64,000 nucleotides of DNA from Ohtaekwangia koreensis (GTDB lineage Bacteria; Bacteroidota; Bacteroidia; Cytophagales; Cyclobacteriaceae), in the NCBI RefSeq assembly GCF_900167975.1, contig NZ_FUZU01000004.1, positions 558,001 through 622,000 of the forward strand, written 5' to 3'. Every line of letters starts with the position of its first letter. Position 1 is the stretch's first letter. Positions 1 to 12,093 of the stretch are shown one piece after another. The notes under the pieces were generated by a model. It did not search any database. It saw nothing but the letters and a program-made list of their open reading frames with translations, and was not told the origin of the DNA. The translations under genes were made by a program, and so were the position numbers.

Positions 1-581
1 ACCACAGAGCCAATGATATAGTGTGTGTCGGTAGGGTTGTTAATCCAATGACGCATCGCTTCGTTGGTAGCATCTTTCAAAGTCATGCTGCCACTCAGCG
101 CAGGAACTACTTTTGCACCCAATATGCGCATGCGCTCAACATTGGGACGTTGCCGCTCCATATCAACTTTGCCCATATATACTATACATTCCATTCCCAT
201 CAGTGCGCATACCGTTGCCGTTGCAACACCGTGTTGTCCTGCGCCTGTCTCTGCTATAATCTTTTGTTTACCGAGTCGTTTTGCCAGCAGAATCTGTCCA
301 ATGGTGTTATTGACTTTATGTGCTCCGGTATGACACAAATCCTCACGCTTCAGGTATATCTTCGCGCCATACTTCTCTGACATTCGTTTGGCATGATAGA
401 GCGGTGTAGGACGGCCTACATAATTTTTCAACAAGTCATCGAACTCTTTTTTAAAGTCATCCTGCTGGATGATGCGCAGGTAATTATTGCGGAGTTCTTC
501 TACATTCGGATATAGCATCTCCGGAATGTAAGCACCTCCGAACTGACCATAATATCCGCGTTCGTCAACTGTATAATTCAT
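1..581 (-). CDS. trpB: Tryptophan synthase beta subunit, 5' part (runs off window)
   Basis: This is the PLP enzyme that condenses indole with serine in the last step of tryptophan synthesis. Only the first 193 codons are inside the window; the 3' end lies beyond base 1. The protein begins [20 protein letters not shown]. It carries the PLP-lysine motif [16 protein letters not shown] (Lys about residue 89) and the GAGQHG motif about residue 112, both diagnostic of TrpB. The ATG sits 10 nt downstream of the trpF stop, so it is the last gene of the trp operon visible here; trpA is expected to follow outside the window. Confidence 0.96.
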
Positions 582-591
582 GTTTTTTATT

Positions 592-1236
592 TTAGACATT
601 GGACTTTGTATGTAAATGTGTGATCTGGGAAATCAATGAATTTAGCTTATCTATACTTTTCATCGCGGGCGCTGCTTCTACACCGCTGTTCACATCGAGC
701 GCATGTATATTCATACCGTTGAGTGCCGTTACTGTGCCTATATTATCAGGCGTAATTCCACCGCTCAGAAAAAATGGTACCTGCTGATCATATTTTTTCA
801 ACAAAGACCAGTCAAACAACTGTGCATTCCCTCCATAGTATTTACCTTTTGTATCGAACAGGAAATAATCGGAAACTGGTTGATAAGGCTTCGTACCGTT
901 GAAATCAAATTCTTCATCGACAGAAAAAACCTTGATAACTCCGATACCTTTACTTTTCATTTCCTGACATACTTCCACCGATTCATGCCCATGCAACTGC
1001 ACGTAATCAAGCTGTAACTGTTTTGCAATACGAGTCATGTTTTCAACGGTCTCATTTACAAAAACACCTACGCGCTTGATTGAAGATGGAAAAAATTCCG
1101 GTAGCGAAAAATTTTCACCCACATATCGAGGCGACTTATCATAGAATATAAAACCCATGTAGTCGGGGCGCAATAAAGAAACCTCCAACACATTCATTCC
1201 ATCCCGCATCCCGCAAACCTTCAGCTTTACATTCAT
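592..1236 (-). CDS. trpF: Phosphoribosylanthranilate isomerase
   Basis: It catalyses the Amadori rearrangement of N-(5-phosphoribosyl)anthranilate to CdRP in tryptophan synthesis. The 214 residues fit the family length. Visible motifs are KVCGMR with the catalytic Cys at residue 8, GFIF, QLHGHE, the LFDTKG segment with the catalytic Asp, the phosphate-binding LSGGI, and DVNSGVE near the C-terminus. It is a separate gene, not fused to trpC as in enterobacteria. It lies 61 nt after trpC and 10 nt before trpB in the minus-strand operon. Confidence 0.95.
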
Positions 1237-1297
1237 ATATATTCCCTATAGTATATTTATATCAACCACTCGCCGCTTATACTTTAAGCTTTCTATT

Positions 1298-2098
1298 TTA
1301 AGCTTTTGTCTTAATCCTCAATTCATCCATAAACTCCATCGCAGCGGTCTCCGGGCGGCTATGCTTCATAAAGTTCTCTCCCATCAGAAATCCTCTATAC
1401 CCATGCTTCTTTAGTTCCAGTATAGTGTCCACGGACGAGATTCCGCTTTCAGATACTTTAACAATAGAATCAGGAATCATTGGTGCAAGTCTTTTGGAAA
1501 CATCTATACTTACCTCAAAGGTTTTCAGGTTCCTGTTATTGACACCAATCAGATCGGCACCGGTCTCCAGATTTTTCTTCAGTTCATCTTCATCATGTAC
1601 CTCCAGCAAAACTTCCAGTCCAAATGAATGTGCGAAGTCAGTTAATTCTTTTGAACGTTTCGGTTCGAGCACTGCTGCAATCAACAAGATTGCATCGGCT
1701 CCAATGGACTTCGCTTCAATAATCTGATATTCATCAATCGTAAAATCTTTACGAATGATGGGGCAAAAATTAAACTTACGCGCGGTCATTAAATCCTCAT
1801 TGCTGCCACCGAAGAAAGGTTTATCAGTAAGTACCGACAACGCAGAGGCACCTGCCTGCATATAGCCAATCGAAGTGCGCTCTACGGAGGCATGTGCATT
1901 GATAATACCTTTGGAAGGAGATTTTCTTTTAAATTCTGCGATGATACCCGTCTTGTCTTCGCGGAGTATATATTTCTTCATTGAAACCGGAAGCGTTGAG
2001 AAGTATATACCTTTCTCCAGCAGCTTCACCGGGTACAGGCTTTTTCTTTCCTCTACTTCTTTGCGTTTCTGTTCAATGATCTCATCTAAGATATTCAT
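1298..2098 (-). CDS. trpC: Indole-3-glycerol phosphate synthase
   Basis: It converts CdRP to indole-3-glycerol phosphate. The protein is a 266-residue TIM barrel of standard length with the family motifs IIAEFKRKSPSKG (catalytic Lys), LTDKPFFGG, IIRKDFTIDEYQI, LLEVHDE, IGVNNRNLKTFE and VSESGI. It starts at ATG 38 nt after trpD and reads straight into trpF, so co-transcription is likely. Confidence 0.96.
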   Translation of the reverse strand: MNILDEIIEQKRKEVEERKSLYPVKLLEKGIYFSTLPVSMKKYILREDKTGIIAEFKRKSPSKGIINAHASVERTSIGYMQAGASALSVLTDKPFFGGSNEDLMTARKFNFCPIIRKDFTIDEYQIIEAKSIGADAILLIAAVLEPKRSKELTDFAHSFGLEVLLEVHDEDELKKNLETGADLIGVNNRNLKTFEVSIDVSKRLAPMIPDSIVKVSESGISSVDTILELKKHGYRGFLMGENFMKHSRPETAAMEFMDELRIKTKA

Positions 2099-2136
2099 AA
2101 CGTTTTTTGTGTTGGGATGTTAGTGTGTACGTGGTT

Positions 2137-3129
2137 CTATGCCTGAAGAAGTTTTTTAAATGCTACGAGTGCTTTACCAGACGCCAACGCTTCTCTTGCT
2201 TTCGTTAGCGCAGAGGAAAGTCCTTCTTGTTGATGTCCCGAATATAGTGCCATGCCCGCGTTGGCGATCACAGCAGCATTTTGTGCTTCTGTTCCTTTGC
2301 CTTCGAGAATTTTCATAAACACTTTCGCCGATTCCTCTACAGTTTCCCCACCTTTCAAATCTTCATATTTCAATTGTGGTAATTCTAAATCTGCCGGCGT
2401 TGCCAGACGTTCGCCATGATTATAAAAATATTTAAAAGGACTCGTGAGCGATATCTCATCGTATCCATCCAGAGAATGAAGTATCACAAAATCTTTATCT
2501 GTATTCTGATATAGATACCCATACTGTCTGGCAAGCTCAAGACTAAATACACCTACCAGTTGTCGCTTTGGAAAAGCAGGATTAACCATTGGGCCTAACA
2601 TATTGAAGAACGTTTTTACGCCGAGCTCCTTTCTGATAGGTGCTACATTTTTCATCGCGGGGTGAAACAAAGGAGCGTGCATGAAGCAGATGTTTGATCG
2701 ATCAAGACTCCGCTTCAATTCGTCTACGTCACTGGTAAATTTATACCCAAAGTATTCCAGCAAATTCGAAGAACCACATGCTGACGACACGCCATAATTA
2801 CCATGTTTGGCAACAGGCTGTCCTGCAGCCGCCACTACAAACGATGAAAGTGTAGATATATTAAACGTACTCTTTCCATCACCACCCGTTCCGCATACGT
2901 CCATCACGGGCTGATCGAATTTAGCAGGGAGACAAAGCTCGAGCATTGCATCGCGAAAGCCCTGTAGCTCATCAACGGTTATACTCCGCATCATGTATAC
3001 CGTCATGAATGCTGTTGTCTGACTGGGATTATATTTGCCCGTTGCCAAGTCTACCAAAACCTGTTTAGCAGTTTCCTTGGTCAGTGAACGATGATCGATT
3101 AGTTCGTTTAGTATCTTTTTCATAATCAT
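2137..3129 (-). CDS. trpD: Anthranilate phosphoribosyltransferase
   Basis: It transfers phosphoribose from PRPP to anthranilate. The 330-residue protein shows the PRPP-binding signature CGTGGDGKSTFNIST, then KHGNYGVSSACGSSNLLE and GPMVNPA, all typical of TrpD. There are two in-frame candidate starts (MIMKK), at 3129 and 3123; the sequence does not decide between them. It is a stand-alone enzyme, not fused to TrpG. Confidence 0.96.
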   Translation of the reverse strand: MIMKKILNELIDHRSLTKETAKQVLVDLATGKYNPSQTTAFMTVYMMRSITVDELQGFRDAMLELCLPAKFDQPVMDVCGTGGDGKSTFNISTLSSFVVAAAGQPVAKHGNYGVSSACGSSNLLEYFGYKFTSDVDELKRSLDRSNICFMHAPLFHPAMKNVAPIRKELGVKTFFNMLGPMVNPAFPKRQLVGVFSLELARQYGYLYQNTDKDFVILHSLDGYDEISLTSPFKYFYNHGERLATPADLELPQLKYEDLKGGETVEESAKVFMKILEGKGTEAQNAAVIANAGMALYSGHQQEGLSSALTKAREALASGKALVAFKKLLQA

Positions 3130-3189
3130 TACTTCATTGTATCCGTGGGCATTGTTAGTACCTATATTCGATTGGTATATATCTGTGTT

Positions 3190-3762
3190 TTAATTCTCAA
3201 GCCAGTTCTTGATCATCTTGGGACCTTCGGGAGTCATGATGGATTCGGGATGAAATTGTACTCCACGTACGTCATACCGCGCGTGTCGTAATCCCATTGC
3301 GAGTCCTTCATCATTTATAGCGGTAATTCTCAAGTCACTGGTGAAACTTTCAGGGAGCACGGCCCATGAATGATAATGCGTTGCCTGAAATTTCTCAGAA
3401 ACTCCTTTGAATAAATATTCTGCTGAATCCTTTACTTCTACGATAGAGGTAACACCGTGAAGGACTTTCGGAATATTATATAGTGTGGCGCCATATACTT
3501 CTCCAATTCCCTGGTGGCCGAGACAAACTCCCAATATACTTTTTGTTGGACCATACTCACGAATCACGTCCTTCATGATTCCCGCTTCATCCGGAATGCC
3601 CGGACCTGGCGACAATAGTATCTTGTCGTATTTCTTCACTGCTTCCACACTAATCTTATCATTGCGAATGATGTCCACTTCATAGCCCAACTCACGTATG
3701 ATATGCACTAAATTATAGGTAAACGAATCGTAATTATCGAGAACAAGTATTTTCATTTTCAC
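3190..3762 (-). CDS. trpG: Anthranilate synthase component II, glutamine amidotransferase
   Basis: It supplies ammonia from glutamine to TrpE for anthranilate synthesis. The 190-residue class I amidotransferase has DNYDSFTYNL, the oxyanion strand LLSPGPGIPDEAG, the nucleophile in GVCLGHQGIGE (Cys about residue 80), and the His-Glu pair in VQFHPES. Such subunits can also serve PabB; placement directly between trpE and trpD argues for the tryptophan role. The start may be the first ATG or the ATG two codons later (MKMKI). Confidence 0.95.
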   Translation of the reverse strand: MKMKILVLDNYDSFTYNLVHIIRELGYEVDIIRNDKISVEAVKKYDKILLSPGPGIPDEAGIMKDVIREYGPTKSILGVCLGHQGIGEVYGATLYNIPKVLHGVTSIVEVKDSAEYLFKGVSEKFQATHYHSWAVLPESFTSDLRITAINDEGLAMGLRHARYDVRGVQFHPESIMTPEGPKMIKNWLEN

Positions 3763-3822
3763 TGATTATGATATTATGAGACAATTCTTCAAACTCTAAA
3801 TCTTTTTGATCTTTCAACTATA

Positions 3823-5223
3823 CTATATTTTCTCTGCCATTAATACCGCTTTGCGAAGTGCTGTGAGTTTATTATTTACCTCTTGCAATTCACTTTCCGC
3901 CTGCGATTTTGAGACCACTCCGGCTCCAGCCTGGTATATCAATTTATTTTCGTGGCTCAGAAATGTCCGGATCATGATCGCGTGATTGAATGATCCATCA
4001 AAACCGATAAAGCCAATCGCTCCTCCATAAAAGCTTCGGTTTGTATTCTCATATTTATTGATCAGTGACATTGCCATGTGCTTGGGCGCGCCCGACAATG
4101 TGCCGGCAGGAAAAGTATCGGCTGCCATACCAATGATCGAAGAGTCATTTTTCAATGTACCGGTAACCTTGGATACGAGGTGTATAACGTGTGAGTAGTA
4201 CTGGATTTCTTTAAAGACTTCAACATGTACACTGGAAGCATTTCTGCTCATGTCGTTACGCGCGAGGTCTACCAGCATCACGTGCTCTGCATTTTCCTTT
4301 TCATCGGCTGCAAGTCTTTCGGCAATCGCTGCATCTTCCTGATCGTTACCCGATCTGCGGAACGTACCAGCAATCGGGTATATATGTGCTTTGCCACCTT
4401 TTACCTGAAGCTGTGCTTCGGGTGACGAACCAATCAATTTGAAGTTTCCATAATCAAAATAAAAAAGATACGGCGATGGATTGATAGACCGTAACGCACG
4501 GTATACATTAAACTCGTCACCTTTAAATCCGCATTGAAATCTTCTGGAGAGAACGATCTGGAATACATCTCCCCTATAGCAATGCTCTTTTCCTTTCTCG
4601 ATTACTTTCAAAAATTCTTCGTCCGTGAAATTTGATTCCTCACCATTAACAAGCGAAAACTTATAGGTAGCAAAGCGATTACTGAAAATGATCTGCTCAA
4701 TTCTATCGAGCGAGCCCGATCCTTGTGGTTGATAGGTGTGCTCGAACAAACTCAGCTCATTCGAAAAATGATCGACTACAATAACATAGCGGTAGAGTTT
4801 ATATAATATATCCGGGATCAGCTTGTTCTTTTGATCTACGGATACATCTTCAAAGAAGCGTACTGCATCGTAGGACATATACCCGAAGAGACCGCAGTTG
4901 GGATATTTCGCTTCTGCATGCAGGGACACGTCAAACTTATTCCGGAAATCTTCCAGCAATGTTGTTACCTGACCAACGCCCGTGATAGTATCCTGCTTTG
5001 TAGAACCATCCGGATATTGAATGGACACTTCATTTTGTACAACCTGAAACGAGGCGATGGGGTCGCAGCAAATAAAGGATAAACTATTTTCATGACCGTG
5101 ATAGTCCGAACTCTCCAGCAAGATGCTTCCGGCAAATACATCGCGTAGTTTCAGATATATATTTACAGGCGTGAGCGTGTCCGCGAGAAGTTTTTTCGTG
5201 TAGGTAGTAAGTTTATACTTCAT
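3823..5223 (-). CDS. trpE: Anthranilate synthase component I
   Basis: This chorismate-utilising subunit makes anthranilate, the committed step of tryptophan synthesis. The 466 residues include the N-terminal LLES segment (SILLESSDYHG), which in characterised TrpE proteins forms the tryptophan feedback site. The catalytic domain shows FQIVLSRRF, GSSPEAQL, PIAGTFRR, DLARNDM and the PAGTLSGAPK motif. It is the first structural gene of the operon, beginning 63 nt downstream of the leader terminator stem, so its transcription should depend on the attenuator described separately. Confidence 0.96.
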   Translation of the reverse strand: MKYKLTTYTKKLLADTLTPVNIYLKLRDVFAGSILLESSDYHGHENSLSFICCDPIASFQVVQNEVSIQYPDGSTKQDTITGVGQVTTLLEDFRNKFDVSLHAEAKYPNCGLFGYMSYDAVRFFEDVSVDQKNKLIPDILYKLYRYVIVVDHFSNELSLFEHTYQPQGSGSLDRIEQIIFSNRFATYKFSLVNGEESNFTDEEFLKVIEKGKEHCYRGDVFQIVLSRRFQCGFKGDEFNVYRALRSINPSPYLFYFDYGNFKLIGSSPEAQLQVKGGKAHIYPIAGTFRRSGNDQEDAAIAERLAADEKENAEHVMLVDLARNDMSRNASSVHVEVFKEIQYYSHVIHLVSKVTGTLKNDSSIIGMAADTFPAGTLSGAPKHMAMSLINKYENTNRSFYGGAIGFIGFDGSFNHAIMIRTFLSHENKLIYQAGAGVVSKSQAESELQEVNNKLTALRKAVLMAEKI

Positions 5224-5285
5224 TGTTCTCGTTGTGTTTATAGGCTTTTGAAGCTGTTATACTTTGATTTCTTTCAAGTTTGGGC

Positions 5286-5320
5286 AAAAAAAGAAGGCCT
5301 GCTGTGAACAGCAGGCCTTC
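5286..5320 (-). terminator. Intrinsic terminator of the trp leader (attenuator)
   Basis: On the minus strand a perfect 12-bp stem (arms 5293-5304 and 5309-5320, GAAGGCCTGCTG paired across a 4-nt loop) is followed by seven T residues (5292 to 5286). It sits between the leader peptide and trpE, where a terminator makes sense only as a conditional attenuator. Part of it can instead pair with an upstream arm (5345-5354). Confidence 0.93.
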
Positions 5321-5349
5321 GCGTTATTGTATTAACATAAAAAGGCTGT

Positions 5350-5406
5350 TCACATATCGTATCGCGATATATGCCACCACCAAGCTATGTTATTGAATTG
5401 TTTCAT
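5350..5406 (-). CDS. trpL: trp leader peptide
   Basis: An 18-codon ORF encodes MKQFNNIAWWWHISRYDM, ending in TGA. Three consecutive TGG codons at positions 9-11 make it a tryptophan sensor: low charged tRNA-Trp would stall the ribosome there. The stop codon lies inside the arm that can form the antiterminator, so a ribosome finishing translation would cover that arm and let the terminator fold. The ATG is only 3 nt after the THX gene stop. It is too short for ordinary gene callers. Confidence 0.88.
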   Translation of the reverse strand: MKQFNNIAWWWHISRYDM

Positions 5407-5409
5407 GTT

Positions 5410-5589
5410 TTATTCTGCTTTCTTTTTAGCAGGTGTTCTTTTCTTTGCAGGAGTAGCCGTAGCCTCTGCTGAATCTTTTTTAGAAGTCGCTCTTTTCAAG
5501 CGTGCTTTAATTGCATTCTTACTTCTTGTAACTCCGAAAGAGCCTATTGTGCGCTTTCCTTTTTTGCTTTTTTTATCTCCTCTTCCCAT
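5410..5589 (-). CDS. 30S ribosomal protein THX-like small basic protein
   Basis: The 59-residue protein starts MGRGDKKSKKGKRTIGSFGV and continues into a Lys/Ala/Pro-rich tail (KKRTPAKKKAE). The MGRGDxKSxKGK block is the hallmark of the THX (bTHX, S31-like) family, a small basic protein found at the top of the 30S head in Thermus and common in Bacteroidota. A longer frame upstream adds 25 residues that do not fit the family, so the start is placed at the MGRGD methionine. Its stop is 3 nt from the trp leader ATG, so the two are probably on one transcript. Confidence 0.85.
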   Translation of the reverse strand: MGRGDKKSKKGKRTIGSFGVTRSKNAIKARLKRATSKKDSAEATATPAKKRTPAKKKAE

Positions 5590-5730
5590 GAATAAATTGA
5601 ATATTGATGCGGCAATAATAGTAAAGTCTTTATTGATTACAAATAATCCTGAAAAAAAATACAATTATTCAACAGCAAATTCCTTCCAACATTGAGACTG
5701 GAGAACGAAAGAACGTATCAAATCGGACCG

Positions 5731-5982
5731 CTATTTCCTTGCTGTAGGCATCAATGAGGGAAGACTCATCGCCATTACACCTGGATAAAGCTGGTGGATT
5801 TTTGTGAAGAACGAAGCTGTTGAAGCGGTCAGTTCAGAAAAGAAAATCATATCCGGCCGCTCATCGTACTGCATTAAATGCTGTTTTTCCAACGAGAATC
5901 TCCGTACCAGATAGCCTTTGTTTTCAAGATCACTAATCACGTCTTCACTATAATTATCCAGAAGCCACACTACACCCGTCAT
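5731..5982 (-). CDS. Hypothetical protein
   Basis: A small 83-residue protein beginning MTGVVWLLDNYSEDVISDLENKGY is preferred; an in-frame start at 6060 would give 109 residues. The alternation of short hydrophobic strands (VVWLLD, DMIFF) with helices resembles the start of a receiver-like fold, but no phosphorylation site can be assigned and the family is not recognised. It is divergent from the gene at 6136. Confidence 0.5.
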   Translation of the reverse strand: MTGVVWLLDNYSEDVISDLENKGYLVRRFSLEKQHLMQYDERPDMIFFSELTASTASFFTKIHQLYPGVMAMSLPSLMPTARK

Positions 5983-6135
5983 AAATTTTTTCTTTTGACA
6001 TACTATATTCTCAACCATTATGCCAAGCGCCAAATCAGTGCGCCAGGGCATTTTCATCACGAATATTCTCCCAACAAAAGAAATGGCGAATAAACTAATT
6101 CTCAGGCCAGGCGTTTATAAAATAAAAAACATGTT

Positions 6136-6603
6136 ATGGCCAAAGCATCAATAGAATTGATTCAGGCACTGCGCAAAACTGCCGACAACCTGGAGAGAAC
6201 AGCGGAGTATCAGTGGGGACATATGGGCTCTTGCAACTGCGGTTTCCTTGCGCAGGAAATTACAAGACTTCGTAAAGATGAAATTCATAAACGCGCCATG
6301 CAAAGGTATGGCGACTGGAACGAACAACTCAATGACTACTGTCCAACGAGCGGTTATGCAATGGATGATCTAATCAGTGAGATGTTGTTGTTCGGCTTTG
6401 ATGTTGATGACCTGAAACACCTCGAGCGCCTGTCTGATGGTAATGTGCTTGCATTATTGCCGCTTGAAGAAAGAAATCTGCAGCGCAATGTAAAGCCGGA
6501 TGTAGTAAAGTATATACGCACGTGGGCGCTGATGCTGGAGAATAGATTATTAGATCAGATATATCTTCCTTCTTTTCTTACGAATACGGAGACTATTTTA
6601 TAA
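6136..6603 (+). CDS. Conserved hypothetical protein
   Basis: The 155-residue soluble protein begins MAKASIELIQALRKTADNLE and contains a YQWGHMGSCNCGFLAQEITRL block with a Cys-x-Cys pair, then a helical remainder rich in Leu and Asp. I associate this N-terminal block with a conserved Bacteroidota family of unknown function. No signal peptide or membrane segment is visible. An intrinsic terminator follows 30 nt after the stop, so it is probably transcribed alone. Confidence 0.8.
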   Translation: MAKASIELIQALRKTADNLERTAEYQWGHMGSCNCGFLAQEITRLRKDEIHKRAMQRYGDWNEQLNDYCPTSGYAMDDLISEMLLFGFDVDDLKHLERLSDGNVLALLPLEERNLQRNVKPDVVKYIRTWALMLENRLLDQIYLPSFLTNTETIL

Positions 6604-6633
6604 AGATTTATCTGGGGATATAGTATAGGTGAT

Positions 6634-6660
6634 AAACCCAGGGTTGCCTGGGTTTATTAT
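6634..6660 (+). terminator. Intrinsic terminator after the 6136 gene
   Basis: A 9-bp perfect stem AAACCCAGG / CCTGGGTTT (6634-6642 with 6647-6655) with a GTTG loop is followed by ATTATTTA. Because the stem begins with AAA, it could also act weakly on the opposite strand. Confidence 0.75.
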
Positions 6661-6756
6661 TTAAGGAATTTATGTGCTTGAAGTGCGTGTGTTGTTGTGC
6701 TTTGCGCGGGAGGGTAAACTGCGGTTTCTATGAGTGAGTAGGCCGTGCTATAAATA

Positions 6757-6830
6757 TGGCTACACATTTTCGATCATAGGCGATCGAAAATGTGTAGCCA
6801 CTTTGTTGTTTGCAAATCTGCGATTTGCAA
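6757..6830. repeat. Long inverted repeat plus adjacent hairpin
   Basis: Arms 6757-6775 and 6782-6800 (TGGCTACACATTTTCGATC and its complement) are a perfect 19-bp inverted repeat with a 6-nt loop. Ten bases on, TTGCAAAT (6810-6817) pairs with ATTTGCAA (6823-6830). There is no T-tract, so simple termination is unlikely. The double hairpin resembles a REP/BIME-type intergenic element; this cannot be confirmed from one copy. Confidence 0.6.
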
Positions 6831-7036
6831 CGCTCGGATCTCTGACTCAATAATCTCAACTTTCAATACATCAGCTATATACTTTGTGCATGGCGCAGGA
6901 TTCATCATTAAGATTCAAGTTCCCAACCCACAAAATTAGATGATGGTTGTAAAATCTCGAACATCCCATATATACCTAACCGGACACTCCGTTTGAAAAC
7001 ATCAAACTTCTGGATGCGAGCCGGTATATATACTAC

Positions 7037-10000
7037 TCAGAATAAAAACCCTAAGCGGATATAGAACATGTCCCCATCTTTGCTGTGTGCGAGTTCTGCT
7101 GCGAGCACGCCCATGTTAAAGGGTGTGAGCCAGATGCCTCCTCCTACACCTTTGTGCCACACCTCTGATTTACCATCGGCTGCACTTGGATCTTTTCCGG
7201 TCGCATCTTTATACCACACACGTCCTACATCGAAGAAGCCATTGATACCAACTGATGCCGGGAACAGGTAAGATCTGAAACTGGCGACTCGTAACCGTAC
7301 TTCGTTGTTGCTATAGAAATCACGGTCACCATAGAAACGGGTTTTACGATAGCCTCTTAATTCGGTTTTACCATCAAGGATCTGTGCTTGGTATACTTCA
7401 TACCTGCCTGTATTTATACCACCACCGGCACGCAACGCAAACGTAACGCGTGCGGGCAATCTAAAAGATTGGTAGAATGCTATAGAAGCGTTGTGTGCCG
7501 AGTAGTTATGAGCATCTGATTCAAAGCCTTTCATCCACGCAGAAGATTCCTTGATTAAAACACCACGCGTGGTGAGGTTGGCGTTGTCACGCTTGTCGAT
7601 GATCCACTCGGTACGAACCCCGCCAAACGTCTTTACATTCTCGAATAAAGGATCTGTCTGTGTCGCTGCGTAGTCTAATATATAGCGTGGTGATTTTGTA
7701 GGTCTTTCAATTTCCATGCGCTGGTATGCCGGACCTATTTTAAAAAGTCCTGCACTACCAAACGGTCGCGTAAGCATGGCCTGCAAGTCAATCTGTTGCA
7801 GGCGGATCCGATAGTAATCTATAGCCGTTCTAAGATTTGAGTAATCATCTCGCTTGTCGTCAAATGTAGTCTCGTTACCCCAACCGAAAAAGTTATTCAC
7901 AAAGTTAGGAGCCTTTACATCAAAGTCGAGTGCTATACCCCATTTGCCAAACACCTGCGAAAACCTTCCATCATACTTGAAATTATAGGAGGATGTGAGC
8001 GGAGCATAGCTTGCCAGAAAAAGCTGCTGACTTTTATAGGGAGTTTTGCGGAACCCGTGTGTGGTATATAAAAATCCTCCTCCAATAAATATACCATCGT
8101 CATAATTGAAGTTGGCGTAAACCAATGGTGCCAACACAGGGTATCGAAAAGCTCTGCGATCATATAGGTTCACAGCAGGATCATTCGATGTCTTATCAAC
8201 CACATGACGCTTGTTGTTGATAACCACTCCGGATCGCTGATCGTATACCTTATAAGGACTATGCCATCCTTTTATAGCCGCTGTGTTCTTTACGGTGTCA
8301 CTTCCATCACCACCGATTACGCGCACAGTAATTTTATTCTTTCCTTCCCCGGAGAAATTGAAAATATCATCGCCTCCTAATCCATACAAGCGAACTTCTT
8401 TTGTTTCGTCTGGAAGAAATTTGCGTTCGTATAGCCTGTCCGATTTCTCGCCTGATTTGTTTACCTTATATATACGTACCGATACATTTCCATCGGTCTC
8501 ATGCTGTACATCGAAGTATTCACGCTTATCAGAACCGGTTATATCCACTTCACGCGCCAGAAATTTATAGTGCTCAAGCGCATACTCCTGCAAATGATTC
8601 CGTCTTGATTTTAGTTTACGAATGATCTCTTCGCCATGCAGTTTATAAATTTCTACAGGCAATTGTTTTACTGAGGCTTCGATCGATTCATCGGTTAATA
8701 CCTTCTGAAGACTCTTCGCTTGCTCTATCCATTGCTCGGAAGATGGCTTGTTGAGAAAACTTCTGTCGAAGTAACGCGCATTGAACATAAAGCCAGGTGT
8801 CCAACGGACTTCATCATGAAACCCTTCAAACTTTGGCAACGCCCATTTGCGGCTCCATACTTTCGCAAGCAGTCCATCACTTACAAAAAGTGCCTGATCG
8901 CGATCGCGAGGTATAGGTCTATAGTATTCAGATTTCTTTTCCTTGAAAGATGCCCATCGCCACTGGTCGTCATGACGATCCCAATCCCCTATCACAATAT
9001 CAAACAACCGCGAGCGCAGCACAAACTCCTGGTCAACATAATTATCATTGTCTTCTGTGAGCTTGGCTAGTACCTTATCTGTGCTGATGATCTTTTTTGA
9101 ATTTCCGAAATACGATTTACTGCTTGCATCACCAGCCGGACGTTCTTCGAACAGCATTAATGTATTGGCGAATTCCTTCCGGTATATTCCGAAACGCGGA
9201 TCATCAGGTATATATACTACAACCGGATTGGTGTGATATATACCGGCCACTTCGGCCAAGGGACTTGCAGCAATTGCTCCATACGGATGTGCGGCAGAGA
9301 TCTGGTCTTGCACAATATCGGCAGCAAATGTTTTTTGCAACATGACGGGCACCGCCTTTTCAGGATATTTTTCGATGGAACGAAGTGTATATTCCTGCTC
9401 CACCGAATCGGCAAGTCGCAAGGAAAGTGTCTGCATGCCCCCACCTTTCTGAATAATTTTCAACCCACCGTTTACTGACCCGATGTTAAAGACCGGAACT
9501 TCTATATCCTGCTTCCATTCATTCCTATAATTCTTTCCGAGTACTTTCTTATGAAAACCGCCAGCTTCATATCGATCACTTGCATGCGTGCGCATAGTCT
9601 TAGAAAAATCCGGTAACGTCTGGTCGGTCAGTGCTTGTGGTATTACAGACGGCTTAACTTGTACGTTGTAGGCTGCATCATTTTTTCCGATCTCAAAAAA
9701 ATCTATAGAAGCAGCGCCTCCCGAAGAAACATCTACTTTCACGAAGCCCATAGCCGGAGAAGCAAACCGTGAATAACCCTTTTGTTTTACGAATGTATAT
9801 TTAGAACCTGAGCCACTGGTTACATAATGCACGCTGTCTTTCCATATATATTGTAAAGCATGTTCGTGGCCATTTACGTATATAGTCTCCGGGTATTTTT
9901 TCAGTAAACCCGCCATGAACTTTATATACCTTCTGTAAATCGGATGTTGTGTGTCTTGTATATCACCAATGAATTTACGGTACAGGGGGTATATCGAGCC

Positions 10001-10735
10001 AACACCTGGCATGGGTATATACAGATCGTGGTTGAGGTCGAGAAATGGAAAGAGGTGATCCTTCCAGGTGAATACGCCACCATGTTCACCATAGGTATAG
10101 AGTGGATGGTGTGCCGCGACTATAACACGTTTACCGGCATTCCGGTTAAATATATCTTCCAGTTGTATCAACGCATCTTCCGGGTATTTCACTTCGCATG
10201 GGCTGTCATCACCTTCCGGCTTGTCCCATGGATGCAGAAACCATTGTGAGTCTATAATTACCAGTACGGCATCTTTACCTAACGGTACCTCCACTGGTCC
10301 GGGACAACCTTCCTCCGGTTGGAAATGGATTTTATCATTGTGTAGGGAATCGATCCACGCTTCCTCATTATTGATTTGCTTGAGGCCGCCTCTTTGTCCT
10401 TTCTTCCAGTCGTGGTTCCCGGGGATGAAGTATATATCCGAGTTGAATCCTTGCAGTAAATTCAGTTGTGCTTTTAAAATCGATTCAGCTTCCGCCCGTC
10501 CTTTTTCATCGGCAGCAGGCAGACCCTTGGGATAAATATTATCACCCAGAAAGATTACTACAGATTGTACCGAAGGATCATACTTCTTTTGTAATAATTC
10601 CTTGAGGCCATTCGTTGGTAAGGTTGGTTCTCCGGCATCGCCAATCAGATAGAGGCTAAAACTCTGTTTCTGAGCATAGAGTGGAGCGGTAAAAAAACAG
10701 AACAGTAAAACGTAAATGGGTCTAAGTCTAATCAT
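7037..10735 (-). CDS. Secreted metallophosphoesterase fused to outer-membrane beta-barrel
   Basis: A 1232-residue protein with a signal peptide (cleavage near APLYAQ, residue 21). The N-terminal third is a calcineurin-like phosphoesterase with the metal motifs in order: GDAGE (about 32), GDNIY (about 63), GNHDW (about 105), HHPLY (about 208) and GHEH (about 289). A long middle region follows, then a C-terminal region of amphipathic strands (YANFNYDDGIFIGGGFLYTTHG and similar) ending in the aromatic C-terminus FYIRLGFLF. This pattern is expected of an Omp85/surface-antigen-type barrel. The enzyme domain is probably surface-displayed or periplasmic and tethered by the barrel. Substrate unknown. 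It is transcribed alone, divergent from the HD-domain gene. Confidence 0.85.
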   Translation of the reverse strand: MIRLRPIYVLLFCFFTAPLYAQKQSFSLYLIGDAGEPTLPTNGLKELLQKKYDPSVQSVVIFLGDNIYPKGLPAADEKGRAEAESILKAQLNLLQGFNSDIYFIPGNHDWKKGQRGGLKQINNEEAWIDSLHNDKIHFQPEEGCPGPVEVPLGKDAVLVIIDSQWFLHPWDKPEGDDSPCEVKYPEDALIQLEDIFNRNAGKRVIVAAHHPLYTYGEHGGVFTWKDHLFPFLDLNHDLYIPMPGVGSIYPLYRKFIGDIQDTQHPIYRRYIKFMAGLLKKYPETIYVNGHEHALQYIWKDSVHYVTSGSGSKYTFVKQKGYSRFASPAMGFVKVDVSSGGAASIDFFEIGKNDAAYNVQVKPSVIPQALTDQTLPDFSKTMRTHASDRYEAGGFHKKVLGKNYRNEWKQDIEVPVFNIGSVNGGLKIIQKGGGMQTLSLRLADSVEQEYTLRSIEKYPEKAVPVMLQKTFAADIVQDQISAAHPYGAIAASPLAEVAGIYHTNPVVVYIPDDPRFGIYRKEFANTLMLFEERPAGDASSKSYFGNSKKIISTDKVLAKLTEDNDNYVDQEFVLRSRLFDIVIGDWDRHDDQWRWASFKEKKSEYYRPIPRDRDQALFVSDGLLAKVWSRKWALPKFEGFHDEVRWTPGFMFNARYFDRSFLNKPSSEQWIEQAKSLQKVLTDESIEASVKQLPVEIYKLHGEEIIRKLKSRRNHLQEYALEHYKFLAREVDITGSDKREYFDVQHETDGNVSVRIYKVNKSGEKSDRLYERKFLPDETKEVRLYGLGGDDIFNFSGEGKNKITVRVIGGDGSDTVKNTAAIKGWHSPYKVYDQRSGVVINNKRHVVDKTSNDPAVNLYDRRAFRYPVLAPLVYANFNYDDGIFIGGGFLYTTHGFRKTPYKSQQLFLASYAPLTSSYNFKYDGRFSQVFGKWGIALDFDVKAPNFVNNFFGWGNETTFDDKRDDYSNLRTAIDYYRIRLQQIDLQAMLTRPFGSAGLFKIGPAYQRMEIERPTKSPRYILDYAATQTDPLFENVKTFGGVRTEWIIDKRDNANLTTRGVLIKESSAWMKGFESDAHNYSAHNASIAFYQSFRLPARVTFALRAGGGINTGRYEVYQAQILDGKTELRGYRKTRFYGDRDFYSNNEVRLRVASFRSYLFPASVGINGFFDVGRVWYKDATGKDPSAADGKSEVWHKGVGGGIWLTPFNMGVLAAELAHSKDGDMFYIRLGFLF

Positions 10736-10860
10736 AAGTACACACTAATATTATAGATGAAGGAACTACATTACTCCTGCACAGGTTAATGGTATACCCT
10801 CCATTCTTCGTCAAACTAAATACAAATTTTGTTAGTTTTAGGTTTATCTTCCACGAAAGT

Positions 10861-12093
10861 ATGATTGAAACGGAATTGGTTCTGAAAGCTAAGGCTTATG
10901 CCGAAGAAATCCTTAGTAATAAACTGCCAAAAAGTTGTGTATATCACAACTTACTCCATACACAGGAAGTGGCGAAAGCCGCTTACGAAATCGGTACCGC
11001 TTCGAATCTTACAGATGAACAGATGGAAACTGTACTTATATCTGCCTGGCTTCACGATATAGGTTATCTGAATGGACCCATTGGTCATGAAAAAGAATCT
11101 GCCAGTATAGCTGTTAAACTTTTACGGGATTGGAAAGCTTCGGAACAAAAAATGGAAGATGTACAACGCACGATCCTGGCCACAGCCGTGCCGCAATCTC
11201 CGAAAGATATCATGGGAGAAGTTTTGTGTGATGCCGATCTCCATCATTTAGCGAAAGCTGACATCCGAGAACGCGGTAAAAAACTTCGTGAAGAATTTGC
11301 TGCTACTAAAACGCTATATTTCGCCTCGGATGACGAGTGGCTTGAATTCAATCTGAAATTTATCAAGAGCCATGATTATTTTACCGACTATGGCAAGCGT
11401 ATACTTCAACCTTTAAAAAAACAGAATATCAAACGACTTAAGAACGAACTGCGACCGGATACTTCGGGCAAGGGATTGGAAGAAATGGAGAAAGAGATTG
11501 AAAAGCTCCGGAAGAAGGTTGAGAAGGGTTCACGTCCTGATCGTGGTATTGAAACAATGTTCCGTACTACATTGGAGAATCATATCAATCTGAGTGGTAT
11601 GGCCGATACCAAGGCCAACATTATGATTTCTATTAATACGATCATTCTGTCGATTGTGGTCAGTGTACTTTTCAGAAAGCTTGAAGAGTTTCCGCACCTT
11701 GTAGTACCTACATTAATGCTGGTGTTAACGTGCCTCTTTGCAATTGTAATGGCGATTCTGGCTACACGCCCAAATATAGCGGAAGGTAAATTTACACGCG
11801 AAGACATCCTTAATAAGAAAACGAACCTGCTGTTCTTCGGTAACTTTCACAACATGCAGCTGAAAGATTACGAGTGGGGTATGCGCGAAATGATGAAGGA
11901 TTACGATTACCTCTATGGAAGTATGATCAAAGATATATACTTTCTGGGCAAGGTGCTGGCGAAGAAGTACAAGTTCATCCGCCTTTCGTATACTATATTT
12001 ATGTTTGGTTTTGTAGCTTCTAACGTGACGTTCCTGTTCGTTACCATGCTCTACTATCAACCATACTCTATTAAGGATTTACTGCTACCTTAA
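10861..12093 (+). CDS. HD-domain protein fused to Pycsar-type transmembrane effector domain
   Basis: The 410-residue protein has an N-terminal HD phosphohydrolase domain with HNLLHTQEVAKAAYEIG, AWLHDIGYL (the HD pair) and a CDADLHHL segment. A helical linker (EEMEKEIEKLRKKVEKG) follows. The C-terminal half has FRTTLENHINLSGMADTKAN, a segment characteristic of the PycTM/DUF5706 effector of Pycsar anti-phage systems, then two membrane helices (residues about 260-310) and a third near the C-terminus. An in-frame start at 10789 exists, but ATG 10861 begins the conserved part. No nucleotide cyclase gene is adjacent. The last 23 nt overlap the convergent gene at 12071. Confidence 0.85.
   Translation: MIETELVLKAKAYAEEILSNKLPKSCVYHNLLHTQEVAKAAYEIGTASNLTDEQMETVLISAWLHDIGYLNGPIGHEKESASIAVKLLRDWKASEQKMEDVQRTILATAVPQSPKDIMGEVLCDADLHHLAKADIRERGKKLREEFAATKTLYFASDDEWLEFNLKFIKSHDYFTDYGKRILQPLKKQNIKRLKNELRPDTSGKGLEEMEKEIEKLRKKVEKGSRPDRGIETMFRTTLENHINLSGMADTKANIMISINTIILSIVVSVLFRKLEEFPHLVVPTLMLVLTCLFAIVMAILATRPNIAEGKFTREDILNKKTNLLFFGNFHNMQLKDYEWGMREMMKDYDYLYGSMIKDIYFLGKVLAKKYKFIRLSYTIFMFGFVASNVTFLFVTMLYYQPYSIKDLLLP

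Follow-up and report, generated by a model that had tools for sequence, protein, structure and literature searches.

A predicted tryptophan leader-peptide attenuator directly behind the ribosomal-protein gene thx in Ohtaekwangia koreensis and related Cytophagales

The window, meaning the whole 64-kb stretch of DNA that was analysed, carries on its minus strand a ribosomal-protein gene, a leader region and the following trp genes, listed here from upstream to downstream.

5613..5643, minus strand: promoter-like site ahead of thx (TTTG at 5643-5640, 19 nt, then TATTATTG at 5620-5613)
5410..5589, minus strand: thx, 30S ribosomal protein THX (bThx, 59 aa; TIGR04560, 39.7 bits, cut-off 26), stop codon at 5412-5410
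5350..5406, minus strand: trpL leader peptide ORF, 18 codons, MKQFNNIAWWWHISRYDM, with ATG at 5406 and stop codon TGA at 5352-5350
5374..5382, minus strand: three tandem Trp codons inside trpL
5351..5373, minus strand: 1:2 hairpin of 9 bp (5373-5365/5359-5351, loop 5364-5360), from the fold and covariation
5345..5354, minus strand: antiterminator arm, segment 2, TGTGAACAGC, overlapping the trpL stop codon
5303..5312, minus strand: segment 3, partner of the antiterminator arm, lying in the 5' arm and loop of the terminator
5286..5320, minus strand: intrinsic terminator 3:4, 12 bp and 7 T (stem 5320-5293, loop TTCA, T tail 5292-5286)
3823..5223, minus strand: trpE (best match TIGR00564, 409.8 bits, under the curated cut-off of 517.7)
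3190..3762, minus strand: trpG (TIGR00566, over cut-off)
2137..3129, minus strand: trpD (TIGR01245, over cut-off)
1298..2098, minus strand: trpC (NF001377, over cut-off)
592..1236, minus strand: trpF (best match NF002295, 166.6 bits, under the cut-off of 216)
1..599, minus strand: first part of trpB, which continues beyond the window

Outside the window, trpB is followed on the same strand by trpA and a DAHP synthase gene. In a comparison that may exclude the window's own record, the nearest named TrpE records belong to Flammeovirgaceae bacterium UBA5867 (92% identity) and to a Cyclobacteriaceae bacterium (79%), both from families of the Cytophagales. Upstream of thx lie two ORFs (5731-6060, 109 aa, and 6136-6603, 155 aa) that gave no NCBIfam match at E ≤ 0.001. 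Downstream of the second, a near-perfect inverted repeat with 19-20 bp per arm (TGGCTACACATTTTCGATC...) occupies 6757-6800 and resembles a terminator on both strands.

Most of the leader elements stand where an earlier note on this DNA had placed them: an 18-codon ORF with three consecutive Trp codons ahead of trpE, a 12-bp terminator stem with a tail of seven T, and a perfect 10-nt arm that overlaps the leader stop codon, the TGA lying inside it. Over its 10 nt, segment 2 matches the reverse complement of 5312-5303 exactly, and the spaced pattern of these two segments occurred once in the window against 0 expected (0/100 shuffles). The predicted leader fold had an energy of −45.3 kcal/mol (z −6.21), which was equally low in 0/200 shuffles. 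A triplet of TGG codons, also present once against 0.32 expected, is weak evidence when taken alone. The description of the circuit as complete held for the ORF, the arm and the terminator, and it left out the 1:2 hairpin, which follows the Trp codons directly in the predicted fold. Similarly, the leader was correctly set ahead of trpE, and thx, whose stop codon ends 3 nt before the trpL ATG, was overlooked. The locus thus presents the features of a trp-type attenuator: a short Trp-codon-rich ORF ahead of a Trp biosynthetic operon, an intrinsic terminator that precedes the first structural gene, and mutually exclusive 1:2, 2:3 and 3:4 pairings. A sigma-70 scan of window positions 1-12000 stayed at the level of chance (31 sites found, 29.1 expected) and was left unused.

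Conservation among Cytophagales relatives, the check suggested in the earlier note, was examined by a TrpE search in 59 genomes, which gave 52 full-length-type hits and 50 upstream regions that were read (30 + 20 loci). Left out of this set were two TrpE paralogues (L002, L003) and two genomes that do have TrpE (G020, G049). A TGGTGG leader ORF was found within 330 nt of trpE in 43 of the 50 regions, and the best-scoring hairpin, taken as the best found with no threshold, was recorded behind each of these 43 ORFs; the remaining seven regions (L022, L025, L031, L032, L037, L045 and L048) had no such leader. One locus of the window's own genus (L007) has a different terminator and a longer leader. 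Such leaders were also observed in the named loci, where 68 of the 77 with enough upstream DNA (80 named in total) carried a WW ORF within 450 nt.

The alternative pairings were conserved and covaried in an alignment of 40 of the 43 leaders, from which a near copy (L004) as well as L036 and L043 were removed. For the 1:2 helix the covariation was 0.412, against 0.211 when shuffled (0/500 shuffles as high; slid versions ≤0.205), with standard pairs in only 68.5% of cells over the 40 leaders. The 2:3 helix gave 0.243 against 0.138 (again 0/500; slid versions ≤0.124), with standard pairs in 77.8% of cells. Double changes were seen in 9/9 pairs of the 1:2 helix and 8/9 of the 2:3 helix, counts that were matched by 59/500 and 12/500 shuffles, respectively, and that are less telling than the covariation score. 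Related rows of the alignment are not independent. Double changes were also present in 8/9 predicted consensus pairs of the terminator. When segment 2 was shuffled, the 2:3 duplex energy of the real leaders had a mean z of −2.87 and p < 0.05 in 32/43, and the duplex strength was not significant in the other 11. Furthermore, a folding model in which the ribosome masks part of the leader gave median values for sequestration of the terminator 5' arm of 0.68 for a ribosome stalled at the Trp codons, 0.19 for one at the stop codon, and 0.44 with no ribosome; the corresponding values for the window were 0.74, 0.19 and 0.52. The stalled value exceeded the stop-codon value by at least 0.2 in 33/43 loci, and the reverse was seen in one. 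Since shuffled segments already gave 0.47 and only 15/43 loci lay above their own 95th percentile, this model is supportive, not decisive.

A conserved leader ORF with covarying, mutually exclusive pairings supports in silico the reading already offered in the earlier note, and the trp operon is very probably under ribosome-mediated transcription attenuation. RNA polymerase would start ahead of thx, as the promoter-like site suggests, and trpL would be translated by the thx ribosome or by another one loading at the adjoining AUG, as suggested by the 3-nt gap. With charged tRNA-Trp present, the ribosome would reach the UGA inside segment 2 and cover this segment, so that the 3:4 hairpin would terminate transcription and leave a short thx transcript. 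Under a shortage of tRNA-Trp, the ribosome would stall at the three Trp codons and block the 1:2 hairpin; segment 2 would then pair with segment 3, the terminator could not form, and transcription would proceed into trpEGDCFBA and the DAHP synthase gene.

The distribution of the element was evaluated with covariance models. Model R1 scored 114.1 bits at the window site and 37.4 at the next site of the genome. As R1 had been trained on a set that includes the window's leader, the former value is partly high by construction; therefore, model R2 was built from 34 rows, none of them from the window's genus, and it gave 103.5 bits at the window site and 35.0 at the next. Of the seven R1 sites ranking next in the same genome (≤37.4 bits), six lacked a WW ORF at the matching position, and the other (L060, 29.2 bits) had a 10-codon ORF ending in WW, which is taken as chance. 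In a sample of 148 genomes of the family, R1 matched 147 at E ≤ 0.01, and 134 were among the matches listed (at least 41.6 bits), a tally that is an upper estimate because some matches near 45 bits are false, for example L106 and L107, which are terminators behind another gene with no short Trp leader. Thirty of the 134 matching genomes gave training rows, and a hand count of the remainder came to 104/118. In a sample of the class, 50/149 genomes had a match at E ≤ 1e-5. Of 29 loci from this sample (L200-L228), 28 had a WW leader ORF, the exception being L228, and trpE lay downstream within the sequence examined in 24. Two of them were judged by eye to differ in the gene that follows: a WWW leader and terminator stand directly ahead of an apparent trpD in L220 (1500-1760), and ahead of an apparent trpB, with trpE further on, in L214 (minus strand, 1490-1760). 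This indicates that the element follows rearranged trp operons.

Separately, ten genomes (L083, L086, L047, L050, L100, L101, L102, L103, L130 and L135) were observed to have tandem trp attenuators, in which trpE is preceded by two WW or WWW leader ORFs in a row, with a terminator behind the first leader in 10/10 and detected behind the second in 7/10. No report of such tandem trp attenuators was found in the literature searched, which was represented by titles and abstract openings and included few subscription papers. In the ninth R1 pair (L104, genome G142), a WW leader is present in the first copy only. This genome has two contigs (L104, L109), each with a trpE-like gene and a near-identical WWW leader, which may reflect a mixture of strains, as the assembly is listed with 5% contamination.

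The thx gene was over cut-off in 86 of the 148 family genomes. It stood on the same strand within 400 nt upstream of the R1 match in 32 genomes and at 0.4-5 kb in 12 more. A set of 44 thx-linked loci that were read, which includes seven named ones, comprised 29 tight loci, 14 wider ones and L117, which has no WW leader and was kept outside both classes. In all 29 tight loci the gap from the thx stop codon to the leader ATG was −1 to 18 nt, and in the wider class it was 37-226 nt. The Bacteroidetes −7 promoter consensus is TAnnTTTG. This box was found 5-60 nt before the leader in none of the 29 tight loci, whereas it stood 5-60 nt before the ATG in 73 of the 84 leaders that did not follow thx within 300 nt, 66 of them with an upstream TTG as well. 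The contrast corresponds to a Fisher p of 3e-18 (6e-15 for 66/84), values that ignore kinship. The comparison set had a leader in 111/127 regions, some of them near copies, and 27 of these leaders were behind thx; three of the 27 had the box (L028, L050 and L169, with gaps of 50-57 nt). Among thx-linked loci, a full promoter preceded the leader in 8/9 with gaps of 37-57 nt, and an exact leader promoter was found in 0/5 with gaps of 75-226 nt.

Ahead of thx itself, 27/29 tight loci had the pattern TTTG-N18..20-TAnn[AC]TTG. The start of its second box lay 25-39 nt upstream of the gene, and no further copy of the pattern was found in the scanned DNA, which reached up to 400 nt upstream of thx (less in 12/29 loci). 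The second box is one base off TAnnTTTG in all 27 loci, and the pattern was loosened by one position after the sequences had been inspected, so these counts are descriptive only. Transcription of the trp genes most likely starts at thx, and thx and trpL are cotranscribed if the promoter-like site is real. In a quick TrpE tree of 59 rows (30 search loci and 29 of the 80 named loci, hand-chosen), 18 tight loci formed one side of a branch with an SH-aLRT of 99; two rows with no upstream DNA (L127, L132) were unlabelled, and L127 fell inside the tight group. This indicates that the position of the attenuator behind thx and the absence of its own promoter came by shared descent; the 29 tight loci share ancestry. 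No report of a thx-trp linkage was found in the literature searched by titles and abstract openings, which covered few subscription papers.

For translation, it is the spacing alone that suggests a coupling of trpL to thx, and ribosomes that leave thx may go on to translate trpL. Initiation in the Bacteroidetes phylum is largely without Shine-Dalgarno sequences. Our proposal, which we put forward tentatively, is that in one clade of Cytophagales the attenuator lost its own promoter and became the tail of thx, and that ribosomes pass from thx to trpL, so that the thx-translating ribosome would stay in step with RNA polymerase. Loss of the promoter in the tight clade, rather than gain elsewhere, is assumed, and the tree does not discriminate between the two. 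An equally serious candidate, falling just short of probable, is that the attenuator is transcribed from the thx promoter while ribosomes load on trpL independently, thx being a mere passenger upstream. It would agree with the same kind of leader having its own promoter box in relatives with no thx nearby, and with the promoters found at gaps of 37-57 nt; the narrow range of the gap throughout the tight group speaks against it. If the proposed handover from thx to trpL is true, tryptophan synthesis would be linked to how active a ribosomal-protein promoter is. The results indicate that attenuation by leader peptides is common for trp genes across a large family of Cytophagales not recognised by the Rfam model. 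The genera moreover provide a natural experiment, with like attenuators having their own promoter in some and standing promoterless behind a ribosomal-protein gene in others, by which the synchrony of ribosome and polymerase in attenuation becomes testable.

Other readings of the leader fared less well. A leader peptide that also acts in trans has been reported for peTrpL of Sinorhizobium meliloti (PMC7298713), and several near relatives of the window retain the core FNNIAWWWHIS; conservation for such a function is nevertheless very improbable here, as the peptide varies widely across the family outside WW(W). That the hairpin is simply the thx terminator and the WWW ORF a chance occurrence could be argued from the hairpin lying directly behind thx and from TGGTGGTGG alone not being rare at the expectation given above, but this candidate was ruled out because WW leaders with covarying alternative pairings are conserved before trpE in genomes both with and without a nearby thx. 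Control of trp genes by TRAP, T-box or riboswitch exists in other bacteria, but a protein- or metabolite-bound leader in place of ribosome stalling is highly improbable at this locus, where tandem Trp codons are conserved in a short ORF, the 64-kb window has no match at cut-off to any Rfam family, and the best of the matches below threshold are to the two trp leader families.

Of these two families, RF00513 (Trp_leader) aligned over its full model with 29.1 bits (E 6e-4, gathering cut-off 41), and RF01692 (Bacteroid-trp) gave a full-length alignment of 32.9 bits (E 0.06, gathering cut-off 49). Twenty loci from the window's genome and its relatives gave no RF01692 hit. In a sample of the phylum it was found in 13/148 genomes at E ≤ 0.001, 11 of them over cut-off and all in one other family (f25), and it also matched the control genome of Bacteroides ihuae. 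RF01692, described as a Bacteroidete tryptophan peptide leader RNA, is documented in Weinberg 2010 (PMC2864571). Relevant passages of PMC6414381 place a conserved Bacteroid-Trp RNA upstream of the Flavobacterium psychrophilum trp operon, and those of PMC9723704 report strong clues for leader-peptide attenuation before amino-acid operons of this species; the relevant passages of both contain no direct test of attenuation. The earlier note's doubt as to how well such attenuators are documented in this phylum is therefore answered by RF01692 and these reports, from which the kind of attenuator is already known there.

Like Bacteroid-trp, the window's leader is a Bacteroidetes Trp leader that precedes trp genes and has its elements in the same order. 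Common to both are the Trp-rich leader peptide, the terminator and a UGA stop codon that falls within the probable antiterminator arm. A WWW leader in this order was present in each of the ten RF01692 loci read (L090-L099). They differ in the pairing core, which by eye is likely CGTCGTGA/TCACGAC against GTGAACAGC/GCTGTTCAC in the window, and in their surroundings, as no thx motif was found in the ten loci (about 3.1 kb each), whereas thx adjoins the leader in the window. Trp_leader follows the same logic as the window's leader, which scores below the cut-off of that family. The tandem attenuators of the Salmonella mgtCBR operon, as presented in PMC3641672, have two leader ORFs in one leader region like those of the tandem-trp relatives, but they serve another function, and the window has a single attenuator. 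The mechanism at this locus is a known one; its promoter and gene arrangement are unusual.
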